From: Planctomycetota bacterium
GTDB taxonomy: Bacteria > Planctomycetota > Brocadiia > Brocadiales > Bathyanammoxibiaceae
Reading direction: 5' to 3'
Assembly: GCA_016209685.1 (NCBI GenBank)
Contig: JACQVQ010000008.1
Span: 255,778-319,777 of the forward strand
Length of the DNA stretch: 64,000 bases
This document shows positions 1-50,341 of the stretch, one piece after another. Both the position numbers and the translations under genes were made by a program. The notes under the pieces were generated by a model. It was not told the DNA's origin. It made no database searches and saw only the letters and a program-made list of their open reading frames with translations. How positions within the stretch are numbered: the stretch's first letter is position 1; each line of letters opens with the position of its first letter.

Positions 1-288
1 GTCAGGGAGGCATTGAGAGGGCCCGTGGATCACATAGCCAATGCAGTAAAGACCGTACTGGAGAGGACTGTGCCTGAACTGGCCTCAGACCTCCTGGAGT
101 ACGGGATGGTGATGGTTGGGGGTGGCTCGCTTCTGAGAGGGTTAGACAAATTTTTGGCCGAGGAGACGGGTATGGCCGTCCGTATAGCCGAAGACCCCCT
201 CACCGCAGTAGCCAGGGGCACCGGGATACTGCTGGAAAACCTGGATATCTACAAAGACGTATTACAAAATGAAGAGGTGGAGGTCTAG
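1..288 (+). CDS. mreB: Rod shape-determining protein MreB, C-terminal part (starts upstream of window)
   Basis: GMVMVGGGSLLRGLDKFLAEETG...AEDPLTAVARGTG is the MreB C-terminal signature; followed by mreC/mreD. Confidence 0.95.
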   Translation, partial: VREALRGPVDHIANAVKTVLERTVPELASDLLEYGMVMVGGGSLLRGLDKFLAEETGMAVRIAEDPLTAVARGTGILLENLDIYKDVLQNEEVEV

Positions 289-1210
289 AAGGCATAATCC
301 CCCCAGGAAGATACTCCTGGCCCTCATTCCTTTAGTAATTTCCCTTGGTCTCCTCAGCCTGCCCTTTGCCTTCTCAGACAAAATAAGGCTCCTGGTAGGT
401 TCTCCCTTTAAACCGGTGCAGAAGGCCTTCCTTAAGGCAGGACGAGGGGTTAATCGGGCCTTCGTATGGGTCCCAACCTCCTGGACTGCCTCTAGTAAGG
501 TAAAAGAACTGGAAGGGGAGGTACAGAGACTACAGAACCGGCTGGTCCAGAGAGAGGTTGCCGTGGCCCGACTCCAGACCGAACTTGCCTCCGTTACGGA
601 GTATTATAAAGAGATAAAAGTGCCACAAAGGCCTCTACTGGCCCACGTGGTAGGTTATGACGTCTCAGACTTCAGAAAGACCTTCCTGATAGATGTAGGC
701 TCAAGGCACGGAGTTGCTAAAGATAGCGTAGTGCTGGCCCAGGACGCACTGGTGGGGAGGGTATCCTCAATAGGCCCCTACACCAGCAGGGTACTCCTAA
801 TTACAGACCCAGCCTCCAGGGTACCTGCCAGGATACTGGAGACTAGCGACCTGGGGGTGGTAGAGGGGACTTCGGGCGGGCTATGCCGTCTAAAATACCT
901 GCCTAAGTGGTCCACCTCAGGTGGAAAGGTACAGAAAGGCTTCAGGGTGGTCTCAGCCCCTATCGGAGGCATCTACCCAGACTCCCTCTACATTGCTACC
1001 GTGGCAGATGACGTAGAAGAAGAAGGGACACCATATAAGACCTTAAAACTCAGACCAGGGGTGGACTTTGCCGGGTTAGACACCGTACTAATCCTCAACG
1101 CACCTCCCCTCCAGGACGGTCAGGAGTCACGGAATATTACCAGCAGTAAAGGAGGCGGGCAGATGCTAGTACCGCTGGCAAGCGGCAGCACTGCTGGCAA
1201 CAGAAGGTGA
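269..1210 (+). CDS. mreC: Rod shape-determining protein MreC
   Basis: MreC-like sequence and position between mreB and mreD. Confidence 0.93.
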   Translation: MKRWRSRRHNPPRKILLALIPLVISLGLLSLPFAFSDKIRLLVGSPFKPVQKAFLKAGRGVNRAFVWVPTSWTASSKVKELEGEVQRLQNRLVQREVAVARLQTELASVTEYYKEIKVPQRPLLAHVVGYDVSDFRKTFLIDVGSRHGVAKDSVVLAQDALVGRVSSIGPYTSRVLLITDPASRVPARILETSDLGVVEGTSGGLCRLKYLPKWSTSGGKVQKGFRVVSAPIGGIYPDSLYIATVADDVEEEGTPYKTLKLRPGVDFAGLDTVLILNAPPLQDGQESRNITSSKGGGQMLVPLASGSTAGNRR

Positions 1211-1214
1211 GATT

Positions 1215-1718
1215 GTGCTCTGGGTAATACTAGTAGCTACTGCCCTCTTTATAGCCATCCTTGAGACTACCACCTTCCCCTACAACCTGGGAGGTAACCT
1301 CCTGGGAATAAAACCAGACCTCTTCCTGCCCATTACGGTCTTATGTGCCCTGAGGCTGGATCTGCTTCAGGCAAGCCTTGTTGGCCTGGTCATGGGGCTT
1401 GCCAGGGATTTGTTCTCCAACGACCCCGTGGGCCTGCACAGTTCCTTCTTCGTAGGGATAGCCCTAATCGTCGGACTCCTCAAGGATAAATTCTACAACG
1501 ACCCCATACTGGTCCAGCTACTGGTAGTCCTGCTTGCCTCCCTGATACACCGGGGGGGATGCGCCATAGTTCTCGGGCTGACCTACCACTCCATTGACCC
1601 CCTCTCCGTCCTCTGGAAGGTCTTCATGGGCACCCTCCTTACCCTGGCCGTGGCCCCCATACCGTATTTCCTACTCAAAAAATTTCTGCCCCCTGTAAGG
1701 TGGAAGGATGTATCCTAA
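1215..1718 (+). CDS. mreD: Rod shape-determining protein MreD
   Basis: Small polytopic membrane protein in mre operon. Confidence 0.88.
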   Translation: MLWVILVATALFIAILETTTFPYNLGGNLLGIKPDLFLPITVLCALRLDLLQASLVGLVMGLARDLFSNDPVGLHSSFFVGIALIVGLLKDKFYNDPILVQLLVVLLASLIHRGGCAIVLGLTYHSIDPLSVLWKVFMGTLLTLAVAPIPYFLLKKFLPPVRWKDVS

Positions 1719-3690
1719 CAGACTAAAGATACTCTTCGTCTTAATAGCGTTGCTCCACCTGGCACTGGTGGGGAGGTTGGCCCAATTGCAACTCGTCCAG
1801 GGAGGGAAATACAGCGGCCTCTCCAAGAAACGTCTCATAAAGGAGCACACCTTATCGGCCCGCAGGGGCAGTATCTACGACCGACACGGTAGACCCCTCG
1901 CCCTGGAAGAGGCCTCTTTTGACGTGGAGGTGCGCTACAAGAACCTCCTTTACAGTTACTACGCCTCCAGGTCCGCCAAAGATGCATCTTCCGACGACAG
2001 AAATGAACTCCCTCCAGACCTCTCCAAAATCAAGGCCCATAAGAGGAGCAACACGGCGTGTCAGGAATGCCACCCCTACGATGGCCTGTGGGTGGAGAGG
2101 GTATCAAGGCTCTTAGACCTCAAACCCGATGAACTCCTGGCAAGGGCTGAAGTGGCAGTAAAGAGGGTGGAATCTATCAAAAAGAACGTCCAGAGAGGCC
2201 GTAAAAGGGGGGTACGTATCCAGGAGGAACTTGCCTCTCTCCCCATAGCTAAAAATATATCAGTTGAAAAGGTGGCGGAACTGGAGACCAGGCTGGAACA
2301 GTACCCTGGGGTGTCTCTGGTGGCCAGACCCAAGAGGTACTACCCCAACGGGGAGCTGGCCTGTCACCTCCTGGGGTCCTTAGGCAGACTCTCGGAGGCG
2401 GAATGGCAGAAAATCAAGGGCCTGCGCACAGAGTCCTCGGATAGTAGACTGAGCCTCTACTACGGCACCCTTTCCAAAGATACACTGGTGGGACGCGGGG
2501 GTCTGGAGGCCCAGTACGACATAGAGCTCCAGGGGAGGCCAGGGAAAAGGATAGAAGAGATTGTCTTAAAGACCATGACGGTGGACAAGGTCATCTTTGA
2601 CATGCCCCCCCAGGCAGGTCATGACCTCTTTCTAACCCTGGACCTGGACGTGCAGAGATTGGCAGAATCGGCCCTGAGTGGATTGGGAGATAAAAATGGC
2701 TCAATAGTAGTAATGGACACCCATACGGGGGAAATCCTGGCCCTGGCAAGCTGCCCAGGGTTTGACCTCAACACCTTTAACCTGGATTACACCCGCCTGG
2801 CCAGTGACCCACGGAAACCCCTTTTAAACCGCCCGCTCCAGGCGGCCCTGCCCCCAGGCTCCACCTTCAAGCCCCTAACCGCCCTGAGCGCCCTTGCCGG
2901 GGGAGAGATTACCCCCTCTACCCAATTTTACTGCGGCGGCAAACTTATGATGGGAGACAGAATCCGCCACTGCACCTCCACCCACTATCAGATGAGGCTG
3001 GAAGAGGCCATGGAGCACTCCTGCAACATCTACTTCTATGAGGTGGCGAAGAGACTGGAGGGCTGTAACCTGGAAAACGAGGCCCGTGCCTTTGGCCTTG
3101 GGGAGAAGACCGGGATAGACCTCCCCTTTGAGGGGGCTGGCCTTGTGCCGGTAACCCGTTCCCTGGGGGAGAGGCTGAACCTCGCCATAGGACAGGGAGA
3201 ACTCCTTGCAACTCCGCTCCAGATGACCCGCATGATGGCTACCGTCGCCAATGGCGGGAAATTAGTGAGCCCCCACCTGTTGAAAAAAGTGGTCTCCTTA
3301 GAAGAAGACCTGCCGTGGGAATCCACCTCAGGCGGATCACAAAAGAAAGGCATCGTATCTATTCCCCCTGAGCACCTCAAGGTATTGTGTAATGCCTTGC
3401 GAAGGGTGGTAATCAGCGGCACTGCCAGAGGTAAGGGGTTAGACGTCCTGGAGGTAGCAGGAAAGACAGGTACCTCACAGATAGGCAAAAAAGGGGTTTA
3501 TCATGCCTGGTTCCTGGGTTACATGCCTTACAATAACCCCCGCTACTGTCTCTGTGTGGTGGTGGAAGAGACTACAGGACACGGCGGGGAGGTAGCGGCA
3601 CCCATAGCCCAGCAACTGGCCCAGGGTTTACTCCGCAGGGATATGGCCCAGCTTACGGCTAAAAGAGATACAGGGATAGAAGGACGCTGA
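1708..3690 (+). CDS. mrdA: Penicillin-binding protein 2 (transpeptidase)
   Basis: PGSTFKP, SCN and KTGTS transpeptidase motifs; next to rodA; contains CQECH. Confidence 0.95.
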   Translation: MYPNRLKILFVLIALLHLALVGRLAQLQLVQGGKYSGLSKKRLIKEHTLSARRGSIYDRHGRPLALEEASFDVEVRYKNLLYSYYASRSAKDASSDDRNELPPDLSKIKAHKRSNTACQECHPYDGLWVERVSRLLDLKPDELLARAEVAVKRVESIKKNVQRGRKRGVRIQEELASLPIAKNISVEKVAELETRLEQYPGVSLVARPKRYYPNGELACHLLGSLGRLSEAEWQKIKGLRTESSDSRLSLYYGTLSKDTLVGRGGLEAQYDIELQGRPGKRIEEIVLKTMTVDKVIFDMPPQAGHDLFLTLDLDVQRLAESALSGLGDKNGSIVVMDTHTGEILALASCPGFDLNTFNLDYTRLASDPRKPLLNRPLQAALPPGSTFKPLTALSALAGGEITPSTQFYCGGKLMMGDRIRHCTSTHYQMRLEEAMEHSCNIYFYEVAKRLEGCNLENEARAFGLGEKTGIDLPFEGAGLVPVTRSLGERLNLAIGQGELLATPLQMTRMMATVANGGKLVSPHLLKKVVSLEEDLPWESTSGGSQKKGIVSIPPEHLKVLCNALRRVVISGTARGKGLDVLEVAGKTGTSQIGKKGVYHAWFLGYMPYNNPRYCLCVVVEETTGHGGEVAAPIAQQLAQGLLRRDMAQLTAKRDTGIEGR

Positions 3691-3694
3691 AGAC

Positions 3695-4795
3695 GTGCTC
3701 AACAAAAGACTATTCAGGGGATTTGACTGGCTAGTGTTCATCTCTATTTGCGGTCTCTTCACCATCGGCCTCTTTTTTATATGGAGCGCCGCCTCCCAGG
3801 GACACGTCTTAAAGCAACTCATCTGGATGGGGCTAGGGCTAGGGGTATTCTTTGTACTACTCTCTCTTGACTATCTCAGTATCGTAAGATACGCCTACGT
3901 CTATTACCTGCTGGGTATACTGGCCCTCCTGGCAGTGCTACTGCTGGGTGCCTCTGTCCGTGGCTCAAGGAGGTGGTTTGACCTGGGGCCGGTCAACTTC
4001 CAGCCCTCTGAATTCTTGAAGATTATCCTGGTCCTGGCCCTGGCGAAATATCTTATGTACAAGGACAGCTACAAGAAACTCCATGTCCTGGCTGTCTCGC
4101 TGGCCTTCACCCTTATACCTCTGATGCTCATCTTTATGGAACCCGACCTGGGCACCGGGATGATACTGCCACCCATATTCTTTGCCATGGTGTTCGTCAC
4201 CGGGGCAAGGATAAAACACTTTATCCTCCTCGTACCTATGGCCCTGGCCTCTCTGCCCTTAATGTGGTTTGTACTCCTCAGGGGTTACCAAAAGGATAGG
4301 GTATTCGGCTTCCTGTGGCCCAACGTGAACCAGGACTGGGGTGCCGCTTACCATCGGCTCCAGGGCCTCATAGCCATCGGTTCAGGCGGGGTACTGGGGC
4401 AGGGCTGGGGGAAGGGCGTCCAGACCCAGTTGGGGGTACTGCCAGAACCGCACACTGATTTCATCTTCGCCGTAATAGCGGAGGAGTGGGGGTTCCTTCG
4501 TACCGTCCTGGTAATCCTTCTCTACGTAACCTTCCTGGCAGGCACCCTGGGTATTGCCCGCAGGACCCGTGAGCCGGTGGGGAGGCTCGTCCTTACCGGT
4601 CTGGCCGCCATGTTCGCCTCCCAGGGGCTGATAAATATGGCCATGGTACTGGGCCTGGCCCCCATCACGGGCATAAACCTCCCCTTCGTAAGCTACGGAG
4701 GCTCTTCACTCCTCACCTCCTTTATTGCCCTCTCCCTCATAATCAACGTGGGGATGCGGAACAAGGTGAACCTGGCCAGAGAGGATTTCTGTTAA
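3695..4795 (+). CDS. rodA: SEDS peptidoglycan polymerase RodA
   Basis: SEDS family sequence, FVSYGGSS near C-terminus; GTG start. Confidence 0.95.
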   Translation: MLNKRLFRGFDWLVFISICGLFTIGLFFIWSAASQGHVLKQLIWMGLGLGVFFVLLSLDYLSIVRYAYVYYLLGILALLAVLLLGASVRGSRRWFDLGPVNFQPSEFLKIILVLALAKYLMYKDSYKKLHVLAVSLAFTLIPLMLIFMEPDLGTGMILPPIFFAMVFVTGARIKHFILLVPMALASLPLMWFVLLRGYQKDRVFGFLWPNVNQDWGAAYHRLQGLIAIGSGGVLGQGWGKGVQTQLGVLPEPHTDFIFAVIAEEWGFLRTVLVILLYVTFLAGTLGIARRTREPVGRLVLTGLAAMFASQGLINMAMVLGLAPITGINLPFVSYGGSSLLTSFIALSLIINVGMRNKVNLAREDFC

Positions 4796-9775: not shown

Positions 9776-11099
9776 TGATACGATAGCCCTTATCGCCACA
9801 CCGCTGGGGGAGGGGGGGATTGGTGTGGTGCAGGTCTCCGGCCCTCAGGCGCTGGAGATGGCCGGTAAGCTCTTCAGGAGCAGGCGGGCGACGTCCGCCT
9901 CAGGTGGACTTCTGCCTGAGATAGACCTTACTAAGGCCCAGAGCGGGAGCCTCTTTTATGGGACAATACATGATAGTGAGGGGCTTATAGACGAGGTACT
10001 TGTGAGTATCTGGAGGGCAAACGGGGGTCCCACTGGTGGGGGTCTGGTGGAGATAAATTGTCATGGGGGCATAATGGCAGTACAAAAGACCCTGGAGGCC
10101 TTTCTAAAGATGGGTGCCAGGAAAGGCAAATGGAAAGAATTACTTGATGGAGTTGCCCCAGTACAGGAAGGGCTGGACCTCATACAAAGAGAGGCATTAC
10201 TCCTCCTCCCCAGGGCAAAGACCAGGTTGTCTGTCAAGATGCTCCTATCGCAGTATCAGTCCGCCCCTGGTGGACTCTCTCACGAGGTCAGGAAGTTAGG
10301 GGAGGAGGCAAAAAGGATTAAGGAGAAGCTGATGGGGTGCGACACTCCCGGGGTGGCGTCTGCCTTCCATTTGCTACTTTCTAGCCTGACTGCCCTGGTA
10401 AATTCCAGCCCCTTCGGACTGGCCCTCGTGAACCCTTTGAAGGTGACCATTGCCGGAGCACCCAACGTGGGGAAGTCTACGCTCTTTAATGCCCTCTTAA
10501 GGGAGGACAGGGTACTGGTACACCATGAGCCAGGCACTACCAGGGACTATATCATTGAGTTCATTTCTATAGAAGGGATGCCCTTAGAACTTATTGATAC
10601 CGCCGGTCTCAGGGAGGCAGAGGGGGTGGAAGGGGTAGGGGTAGAATGGGCCAGGGCCCTCCACCAGGAGGCAGATAAGGTCATACTGATGCTGGATGCC
10701 TCCAGGCACATCACCCAGGAGGAAGAAGGACTTATAGGTACACTGGATACCAGCAAGGTAGTGCCTGTACTAAACAAGATAGACTTGGTAGGGTCACGTT
10801 GCCCGCCTGAGGCGGATGCCCTACAATTATTTTCCATACCTCCCTGTGAGGTATCAGCCCTGAGTGGGAAGGGACTAGACGGTCTTAGAAGGATGCTCGT
10901 CAAGGAATTCCTCCCGGAGATAGAGAGAGGCCCCCACCGCCCCATCGTCTTCACCCAGAGGCAGAAGGGGCTGTTGGAAGAGGCCCTCAGTGTAGCCAGG
11001 GGATTACCCAGGGATATAATTGATTGCTTTACTGCCAGCGAGGTTTGTCAGAAACTAGACCAACTGGAGAAGCTCCTCCTTGGTGTGCTTAAGGAATGA
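9762..11099 (+). CDS. MnmE/TrmE-like GTPase (degenerate)
   Basis: DTIALIATPLGEGGIGVVQVSG, VEINCHGG, GAPNVGKST, DTAGLRE, NKID; no C-terminal CxGK. Confidence 0.9.
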   Translation: MPRSNDTIALIATPLGEGGIGVVQVSGPQALEMAGKLFRSRRATSASGGLLPEIDLTKAQSGSLFYGTIHDSEGLIDEVLVSIWRANGGPTGGGLVEINCHGGIMAVQKTLEAFLKMGARKGKWKELLDGVAPVQEGLDLIQREALLLLPRAKTRLSVKMLLSQYQSAPGGLSHEVRKLGEEAKRIKEKLMGCDTPGVASAFHLLLSSLTALVNSSPFGLALVNPLKVTIAGAPNVGKSTLFNALLREDRVLVHHEPGTTRDYIIEFISIEGMPLELIDTAGLREAEGVEGVGVEWARALHQEADKVILMLDASRHITQEEEGLIGTLDTSKVVPVLNKIDLVGSRCPPEADALQLFSIPPCEVSALSGKGLDGLRRMLVKEFLPEIERGPHRPIVFTQRQKGLLEEALSVARGLPRDIIDCFTASEVCQKLDQLEKLLLGVLKE

Positions 11100-11806
11100 A
11101 GCCTGCCAGGAACATAGCCTTATTAGGTGCCCTAATTCTTTCCTCTGTTACTTTTATGGCTCAGGGTCTTAATGGGCAGGGGTTCCTTGTGGACGTAAAG
11201 TGCTCTAAGTGCCACACCCTGGAGCGTGTCTTTATCATATGCAAGTCCGAAGGCGAGTGGCGGGACGTGATAGAGAAGATGATGGGGAAGAACCCCGAGT
11301 GGATTCGGCCTGGGGAGGCTGAACAGGTCCTAAAGGAAATCCTCTCGCTTTACCCCGACCGAGTCCACGAGATGTGCAGGACAAGGAGGCACTACGAGAA
11401 CGTAAGGCTATTATTTTTAGACCGCTGTACTGTCTGCCACAACATAAATAGGGTCTTGTTTGAGGATAGGACCCGGCATGAGTGGGGAGAGACCGTAAGG
11501 CGTATGTACTCAGAAGCGATGGGTTTTATCACCGAGGAGGAGGCCGCACAGATTGCCCACTTCCTCTCGGAAACGGGACACCTACTTAAGGAGGAGGCAG
11601 GAGGGAGGGTATTCGTGGCCAAGTGCCTTAACTGCCATCCGGGGGAAGAAATCTTGATGGAGACGCACGACAGCGCAGGTTGGGGGAAGCAGGTGGAGAG
11701 GTGCAGGGAGACCGCTTGCAGGACCTTCAATACCAACTGGCTTGACCCCGCCGAGGCCAGACTAATTGTAGACCTGCTAGTGAAGACCCAGGGGGAGGGA
11801 CGTTAG
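11096..11806 (+). CDS. Secreted triheme c-type cytochrome-like protein
   Basis: Three CXXCH motifs (CSKCH, CTVCH, CLNCH), N-terminal signal peptide. Confidence 0.88.
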   Translation: MKPARNIALLGALILSSVTFMAQGLNGQGFLVDVKCSKCHTLERVFIICKSEGEWRDVIEKMMGKNPEWIRPGEAEQVLKEILSLYPDRVHEMCRTRRHYENVRLLFLDRCTVCHNINRVLFEDRTRHEWGETVRRMYSEAMGFITEEEAAQIAHFLSETGHLLKEEAGGRVFVAKCLNCHPGEEILMETHDSAGWGKQVERCRETACRTFNTNWLDPAEARLIVDLLVKTQGEGR

Positions 11807-48573: not shown

Positions 48574-49065
48574 TTAAATCCTCGTCCCCGTCTTCTTAAA
48601 CTCCTTTTCGCTGTAGAGTATCACGTAGTCCTTCACACCTGTCTTCTCCTGCATCTCCTCTATAACCCTCTCACATTCCCCGTCGGCGTAGCCGTGAATC
48701 ATCGTGAATAGGTTATAAGGCCAGTCAGGGAAAGTGGGGCGTTCATAACAGTGTGTAACCTCCGGGAAGCCAGCCATAACCTTGCCCACCGCCTCTACCC
48801 TATCTGAGGGCACCCTCCAGACGCACATGGCGTTAGAGTTTATGCCTATCTTGCGGTGTGCCACGCTGGCCGCAAACCGCCTGACCTTTTTTGTCTCAAG
48901 GAGACCTTTTATACGGCTGATGACCTCCTCCTCCGTCATCCCCAGTGCCTCCCCTATCTCTTTATAGGGCCTTTCCACCAGTGGGATGCCGTCCTGTATG
49001 TGCTTCAGGAGTTTGATATCTACCTGGTCTGTCGTTTTAGAGGTCACTACCTTTTCTATATTCAT
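48574..49065 (-). CDS. Siroheme decarboxylase AhbB-like (Lrp/AsnC-type)
   Basis: Lrp-like HTH plus ACWPNL-type core; paired with AhbA-like gene. Confidence 0.85.
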   Translation of the reverse strand: MNIEKVVTSKTTDQVDIKLLKHIQDGIPLVERPYKEIGEALGMTEEEVISRIKGLLETKKVRRFAASVAHRKIGINSNAMCVWRVPSDRVEAVGKVMAGFPEVTHCYERPTFPDWPYNLFTMIHGYADGECERVIEEMQEKTGVKDYVILYSEKEFKKTGTRI

Positions 49066-49067
49066 TT

Positions 49068-49589
49068 CTATTCCCCGCTATAGATGTTAAATTTTACCCC
49101 TATCTTAAACTTCTTGGTGGTGGGGAGATTTCTTACCTCAAGGCCGGTCTTTTCCTCTATCTCTTTAATCAGCCTGACAAGTTCCTGCTTGTTAGGGGCG
49201 GACATGGTGAACCATACGTTGTAAGGTATCTCCTTGTTCTTCCCTTTTCTCAGGTAGTTATGGGAGACGCCCGTGTAGGCATTTATAGTCCTGGAGACCT
49301 CCTCAATGCGACCCTCCGGCACCCTCATGGCCATGAGGCTTGCGGTATTGCCCATCTCGTGGGTGTCTATGATGGGGCCCAGGCGGCGGAAGATGCCCTT
49401 TTCGGCCATAGCCCTTGTCCGACGGAGCACCTCACTTTCTTCCAGTCCCAGTTCCTCGGCAAGGGTCCGGAAGGGATGGGGGGTGAGGGGGAAATTAGAC
49501 TGGAGACGGTGGAGTATCTTTTTATCTTCTCTTGTTAGTTCCATATTATAATGAAGGATTTTAGGAGGTGGCAGGGCCACTCCCGACAA
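49068..49589 (-). CDS. Siroheme decarboxylase AhbA-like
   Basis: LTREDKKILHRLQSNFPLTPHPFRTLAEELGLEESEVLRRTRAMAEKGIFRRLGPIID. Confidence 0.87.
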   Translation of the reverse strand: MSGVALPPPKILHYNMELTREDKKILHRLQSNFPLTPHPFRTLAEELGLEESEVLRRTRAMAEKGIFRRLGPIIDTHEMGNTASLMAMRVPEGRIEEVSRTINAYTGVSHNYLRKGKNKEIPYNVWFTMSAPNKQELVRLIKEIEEKTGLEVRNLPTTKKFKIGVKFNIYSGE

Positions 49590-49603: not shown

Positions 49604-50341
49604 CTAGGTCTCACCAATGGCGTCCCTAATCTCCTGGAGCGTGGATTCCTTGACCAGGACTTCGTAGATATACCGTCCGCCCTCGCCCAGTATCTTTTCT
49701 GAGGCCATTTCCAGGGCCTTCACCACCTGTGGTTCCTGTACAAACCTCACCAGTTCCGTGGCAAATCGGGGATGTCTGCCCACCTTACCGCCCATAACTA
49801 CGGTGTGTCCCCTGGCCTTTACCTTTATAGAACCCGTGGGGCAGACCCTGGCACATTGTCCGCAATCCACGCACCGTTCGTAATGGACAATTACCGTCCT
49901 GTCAGGCTTCAGGGTTATGGTCTCTTCCCTGCAGGCCTTCAGGCACTTACGGCAGAGGGTGCATTCGGCGCCTGGGTCCACGGTCACTTGCTCCCTGGCA
50001 ATCACCCCAAAGTCCTTTATCTGGGGCATGGAACAGCTATTAGGACAGCCAGCCACGGCCATCTTAAAGGTCTGGTGGGGGAGTATCCTGCCAGGGATCT
50101 TTTCGTAAAGCCGCTGACTGAAGGAGAGTTCCTCCATCGTATCGGCCATCTGCCTGGCAATGGGCCTTGGGGCCTTGATGAGGAAGGGACATCCCACCTC
50201 CTCACCCTTGCAGGATTTTATCTGGTAGAGGACCGCCTGCCCATCCTCTCTGATGTACTTTTCGTACTTCCTGAGGATGGCCAATTTGTCCCCTTGGGGG
50301 TTCACAACGGCTAATCTCCCTGAGGCATGAGTTGCGTCCAT
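49604..50341 (-). CDS. Sulfite reductase-like protein with two ferredoxin [4Fe-4S] motifs
   Basis: AGCPNSCSMPQIKDFGV siroheme/FeS half-motif; CTLCRKCLKAC and CVDCGQCARVCP. Confidence 0.85.
   Translation of the reverse strand: MDATHASGRLAVVNPQGDKLAILRKYEKYIREDGQAVLYQIKSCKGEEVGCPFLIKAPRPIARQMADTMEELSFSQRLYEKIPGRILPHQTFKMAVAGCPNSCSMPQIKDFGVIAREQVTVDPGAECTLCRKCLKACREETITLKPDRTVIVHYERCVDCGQCARVCPTGSIKVKARGHTVVMGGKVGRHPRFATELVRFVQEPQVVKALEMASEKILGEGGRYIYEVLVKESTLQEIRDAIGET

Follow-up and report, generated by a model that had tools for sequence, protein, structure and literature searches.

A conserved CXXCH motif in PBP2 of the Brocadiales, a predicted haem c attachment site in an elongasome transpeptidase

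PBP2 (MrdA), the transpeptidase of the elongasome, is among the best-studied bacterial growth enzymes and a target of beta-lactams. As in other class B PBPs, an N-terminal membrane helix anchors the protein, and both the head and the catalytic domain lie outside the cytoplasm. For PBP2 of H. pylori, the helical head and anchor are described as opening so that MreC can bind (PMC5626683). Zinc sites have been published for A. baumannii PBP2 and for C. difficile PBP2, PBP3 and SpoVD (PMC9974482, PMC9334274); the ligands follow the pattern C/D-x12-14-C/D-x5-9-H-x12-C, which ends in the x of the SxN motif.

A second set of described systems that bears on this work is that of the monohaem c-type cytochromes of System II, which have a CXXCH motif in an exported domain together with the genes for maturation. 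The purified System II synthase CcsBA requires both thiols and the histidine, and it attaches haem to peptides of 9-20 residues (PMC8112865). A type II cytochrome c maturation pathway was described earlier for anammox bacteria (PMC4222556). In work on the Kuenenia peptidoglycan wall, homologs of Pbp2 and Pbp3 are named, and the passages on PBPs consulted there do not mention haem (PMC4432595). An earlier note on the DNA analysed here had remarked that no haem-containing elongasome transpeptidase is known to have been described. Our literature searches on haem and PBPs agree, having turned up nothing relevant and no haem for PBP2; the gene may nonetheless stand, uncommented, in genome-wide lists of anammox CXXCH proteins.

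The gene considered here lies near the start of a 64-kb stretch of DNA that was analysed as a whole (hereafter the window; Table 1). It is a member of a canonical mreB-mreC-mreD-pbp2-rodA run, in which MreD is assigned by position only. The product matches the Pfam families PBP_dimer (E 2e-27) and Transpeptidase (E 5e-65), both over the cut-off. The NCBIfam model pbp2_mrdA matches at E 2e-135 with 452.7 bits, which falls 2.3 bits short of the curated cut-off of 455 and lies far above any other family, and hhalign aligned the protein to E. coli MrdA over 559 columns with a probability of 100 (E 2e-76). Domain order, catalytic motifs and the mre/rodA context are all shared with PBP2/MrdA of the E. 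coli and H. pylori Rod complexes. Because the catalytic residues are intact (S385 and the SxxK lysine K388, with S438 and K586 also in place), the protein is still a transpeptidase, as far as can be judged from sequence alone. The closest named records belong to two MAGs, Planctomycetes RIFCSPHIGHO2_12_FULL_52_36 (94% protein identity) and Candidatus Brocadiaceae Yes70-17 (92%).

Table 1. Features of the PBP2 gene and its operon, with positions in the window
Feature	Position	Strand	Basis
MreB, C-terminal end, truncated by the window start	1..288	+	Pfam MreB_Mbl, E 6.4e-27
MreC	269..1210	+	Pfam MreC, E 6.5e-36
Probable MreD, a membrane protein encoded between mreC and pbp2	1215..1718	+	ORF and position only
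PBP2/MrdA, the class B elongasome transpeptidase (660 aa)	1708..3690	+	Pfam, NCBIfam, hhalign, operon context
N-terminal membrane helix of PBP2, about aa 6-28	1723..1791	+	Hydrophobic stretch that aligns with the E. coli MrdA N-terminal helix
Head-domain insertion of PBP2, about aa 81-127 (~45 residues)	1948..2088	+	Profile alignment with E. coli MrdA, almost no counterpart
His111 of PBP2, candidate distal ligand (role inferred)	2038..2040	+	Family alignment
CQECH, aa 118-122 of PBP2, where haem c is predicted to attach, with H122 as predicted proximal ligand	2059..2073	+	Conservation, codon usage
SxxK motif STFK of PBP2, catalytic Ser385	2860..2871	+	Invariant across aligned PBP2, E. coli MrdA included
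Predicted zinc site in the transpeptidase domain, separate from CQECH (C409, C422, H426, C439)	2932..3024	+	C-x12-C-x3-H-x12-C, resembles published PBP zinc sites
SxN motif SCN of PBP2 (S438)	3019..3027	+	Alignment
KTG motif of PBP2 (K586)	3463..3471	+	Alignment
RodA	3695..4795	+	Pfam FTSW_RODA_SPOVE, E 3.4e-89

The transpeptidase domain contains a pattern like that of the Zn-binding class B PBPs, likewise ending in the x of SxN. Its ligands and the H-x12-C spacing of C409-x12-C422-x3-H426-x12-C439 fit the published sites, whereas the middle spacing is shorter, and no metal has been shown. The same C/C/H/C pattern also occurs in the planctomycete and Omnitrophota sequences of the PBP2 alignment. 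This predicted site is about 300 residues away from the CXXCH motif that concerns us here, and the Zn-binding PBPs have not been reported with a CXXCH in the head.

In contrast to E. coli MrdA, the window PBP2 has a head insertion with the motif CQECH (C118, C121 and H122). The earlier note had placed this motif inside PBP2/MrdA, and it is indeed in frame within the open reading frame, in the region KRSNTACQECHPYDGLWVERV. Relative to E. coli MrdA it falls near residues 95-99, directly past the strand aligned to FDVEV. The placement of the insertion in the head domain rests on alignment only. An AlphaFold model of PBP2 (four sequences) had a mean pLDDT of 35.5, which made it unusable, and it was not used; a search of viral contigs for extra PBP2 sequences to fold found no relatives. 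Considering that head and anchor of H. pylori PBP2 open for MreC, the aligned position would put the insert on the partner-facing (MreC-facing) side of PBP2, remote from the active site. The other class B PBP of the genome, an FtsI-like protein (FtsI/PBP3), is without CXXCH, so the motif is not common to every class B PBP that the organism has.

The order Brocadiales was sampled through 62 genomes from five families (f1-f5), and the class through 75. Sixty PBP2 copies from 59 Brocadiales genomes could be aligned, and two genomes (G024 and G042) gave no readable head. Both C118 and C121 are present in every aligned copy (60/60) and H122 in all except one (59/60); a conserved CXXCH, the membership criterion of a c-type haem protein, is accordingly found in 59/60. 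In G048 (locus L063) a frameshift divides one more copy, which is outside the aligned set and reads CGECH. The sole Brocadiales PBP2 with a broken motif is that of G033 (L044), a one-contig genome, which reads CRECR with CGT in place of the His codon; a genome of the same genus reads CKECH with the His codon CAC, and it is not decided whether CRECR is a sequence error or a real loss. The absence of CXXCH from close orthologs had been set beforehand as a result that would refute a haem site, and the motif has now passed that test across the whole order. This conservation rules out a chance motif, and the 60 copies from five families that carry C118 and C121 rule out a peculiarity of the source MAG.

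Identity between families over the PBP2 head is only about 15-40%, and from aa 99 to aa 135 the residues conserved in at least 90% of copies are C118, C121, H122 and W128 alone. The X residues of CXXCH vary freely among the Brocadiales proteins. Synonymous codons are mixed as well: the two Cys codons are about equally frequent, and His is encoded by CAT in 41 copies and by CAC in 18. That the motif was kept through such deep divergence, while its surroundings and its synonymous sites changed, indicates that C118, C121 and H122 are under purifying selection.

How far does the motif extend beyond the Brocadiales? It is missing from the 10 readable PBP2 of f6, f7 and f8, which belong to other orders of the same class, and CXXCH was found in none of about 75 PBP2 head regions read from the rest of the Planctomycetota; a general property of planctomycete PBP2 is thereby ruled out. 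When 392 genomes of the phylum were searched with a head-domain profile, strong full-length matches came only from Brocadiales, f9 not being in that sample. PBP2 beyond the phylum was hardly sampled (one Omnitrophota sequence and E. coli). In family f9 (G069, L064), which belongs to a different order of the class, the head insert contains two CXXCH motifs, 24 residues apart and at the same place, in a region with weak, sub-threshold matches to Cytochrome_C7 and Paired_CXXCH. This PBP2 is a possible dihaem version outside the Brocadiales. Inserts with Cys pairs at about the same spot occur in two further planctomycete families: the two genomes of f22 show a zinc-ribbon-like CxxC-x14-CxxC without any CXXCH, and the one genome of f66 shows a similar cluster, CTAC and CRCH. 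These exported inserts (loci L088 in G087, L140 in G136 and L164 in G285) differ from that of the Brocadiales in having two Cys knuckles. With the double CXXCH of f9 and the zinc-ribbon-like inserts of f22 and f66 at about the same spot, this looks like a place where planctomycete PBP2s may accept metal- or haem-binding inserts.

In a tree of the catalytic part, with the head region left out, the Brocadiales come out as a single group, and f9 is placed beside f8 with weak support (SH-aLRT 84). It is therefore undecided whether the motif was gained once, and lost in f8, or gained twice. The genome of the window and 39 other genomes of the order contain hydrazine synthase alpha (PF18582); on this basis, and from the closest named records, the order is taken to be Brocadiales, the anammox group. 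Outside the Brocadiales, matches to this domain were seen in G063 (f7; 11 matches) and G069 (f9; 16 matches), in long proteins of about 770-1730 aa.

We consider it probable that PBP2 of the Brocadiales bears haem c, with one covalent c-type haem in the order-specific head insertion, although attachment is inferred and has not been shown. The motif is, as had been claimed, in the right compartment for the maturation machinery: the residues downstream of the N-terminal helix are exported, as inferred from the topology of class B PBPs, and System II is present in the genome (two loci with ResB-like genes, and four genes of the CcsA type). The residues under selection in PBP2 are exactly the three that CcsBA needs, namely both cysteines and the histidine. 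That System II attaches haem to an accessible CXXCH follows from established knowledge, and its attachment to PBP2 in vivo is an inference. The window PBP2 thus has in common with the monohaem c-type cytochromes an exported CXXCH and the maturation genes, but differs from them in that no cytochrome fold or family is matched over the cut-off and no haem has been demonstrated. Pfam searches with single Brocadiales inserts likewise gave no cytochrome family over the cut-off, and PBP2 is for that reason not filed in any.

The only other CXXCH motifs in family-supported proteins of the window are three (CSKCH, CTVCH and CLNCH), all in one triheme protein (11096-11806, plus strand); the remainder are in short or unsupported frames. 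The earlier note had mentioned this protein alongside PBP2. It is real, but it is encoded ~7 kb from PBP2 and nothing was found that links the two. It is similar, below the NCBIfam cut-offs, to the haem-binding domain of the quinohemoprotein amine dehydrogenase alpha subunit and to SorB. Elsewhere in the window, at 48574-49589 on the minus strand, two adjacent genes encode both subunits of the siroheme decarboxylase of the alternative haem pathway, AhbB with 202 bits against a cut-off of 125 and AhbA with 147 bits against one of 140. Adjoining ahbAB, at 49604-50341 on the same strand, is a gene for a protein with sulfite/nitrite reductase 4Fe-4S and ferredoxin domains, distantly like sulfite reductase subunit C.

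A candidate for a distal ligand is H111, which is present in all 44 copies of f1, f2, f4 and f5 and in none of the 16 copies of f3. The f3 copies have instead a Cys at the column of aa 86, seen in no other family. What was exchanged here could be either the distal haem ligand (from His/His to His/Cys) or a fourth ligand of zinc; as one event, it decides neither for haem nor for zinc.

Zinc is the main rival to haem, because two other planctomycete families have zinc-ribbon-like inserts at about the same place. In such a structural site, C118, C121 and H111 (or the Cys of f3), possibly with H122, would coordinate zinc and keep the inserted loop in place; the site would then be a reduced relative of the CxxC-x14-CxxC of f22 and the similar cluster of f66. 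Class B PBPs are known zinc binders, though in the transpeptidase domain, and there are weak sub-threshold matches to the YyzF/CxxH-CxxC family. However, the criterion for a zinc ribbon, two Cys/His knuckles with four ligands, is not met, since there is one CXXC, no four ligands are common to all copies, and just three residues are shared by all the Brocadiales proteins. A neighbouring cysteine and histidine, as C121 and H122 are, make an unusual ligand pair for a single zinc. Nor does zinc need a His exactly after the second Cys, yet the residue is there in 59/60, and f9 repeats CXXCH and not merely CXXC. On balance a zinc site appears unlikely to us.

A C118-C121 disulfide, redox-active or structural, that switches or stabilises the head without metal or haem would leave the same fixed His122 (59/60) unexplained. 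A CXXC within an exported domain would suit such a bond, and redox regulation has been proposed for cysteines of other class B PBPs; however, where System II serves the membrane, an apo-CXXCH should be supplied with haem, an expectation that combines inference with PMC8112865, and we regard the disulfide as quite improbable. Perhaps the motif, inherited or chance-born, does nothing at all. The single loss tolerated in G033 and the absence of the motif from most planctomycetes would be in keeping with a functionless coincidence, but its retention while surroundings diverge and synonymous sites switch leaves that hardly credible. Haem is favoured by the fixed His that directly follows the second Cys, the absence of any four ligands shared by all copies, the repeated CXXCH of f9, and export together with System II. 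Against it stand the fact that none has been shown, the failure of single inserts to reach the cut-off of any cytochrome family, the CRECR of G033, the candidate distal His missing from f3, the zinc-ribbon-like inserts of f22 and f66, and the want of a usable structural model.

If PBP2 of the Brocadiales does carry haem, a plausible sequence of events can be outlined. The N-terminal helix would hold PBP2 in the membrane and leave head and catalytic domain outside the cytoplasm, as class B PBP topology implies, and System II (CcsA/ResB) would then attach haem to C118 and C121, with H122 as the inferred proximal ligand. The distal position might be taken by H111 in four families and perhaps by the Cys at the aa 86 column in the fifth, an inference that is weak. 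Most likely, though again by inference, the haem on the MreC-binding part would stabilise or tune the state of head and anchor, so that its role would be regulatory or structural at the MreC-facing head. It may be a structural element, or a redox/NO sensor that couples wall elongation to the state of the periplasm, and these variants cannot be told apart. The sensor is attractive given anammox chemistry, but it is conjecture, and we think it less likely than not. In its fullest form, which is equally speculative, PBP2 would be a haem-c sensor-enzyme whose head haem, on changing its redox state or binding NO, turns engagement of MreC and RodA on or off, coupling wall growth to nitrogen and redox metabolism, with f9 as a dihaem version.

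The wall of anammox bacteria was long disputed, and these organisms handle both NO and hydrazine. If the haem is real, its fixation in PBP2 throughout an order would tie peptidoglycan synthesis directly to redox or NO chemistry, and the control of the Rod complex through haem becomes a question that can be tested.
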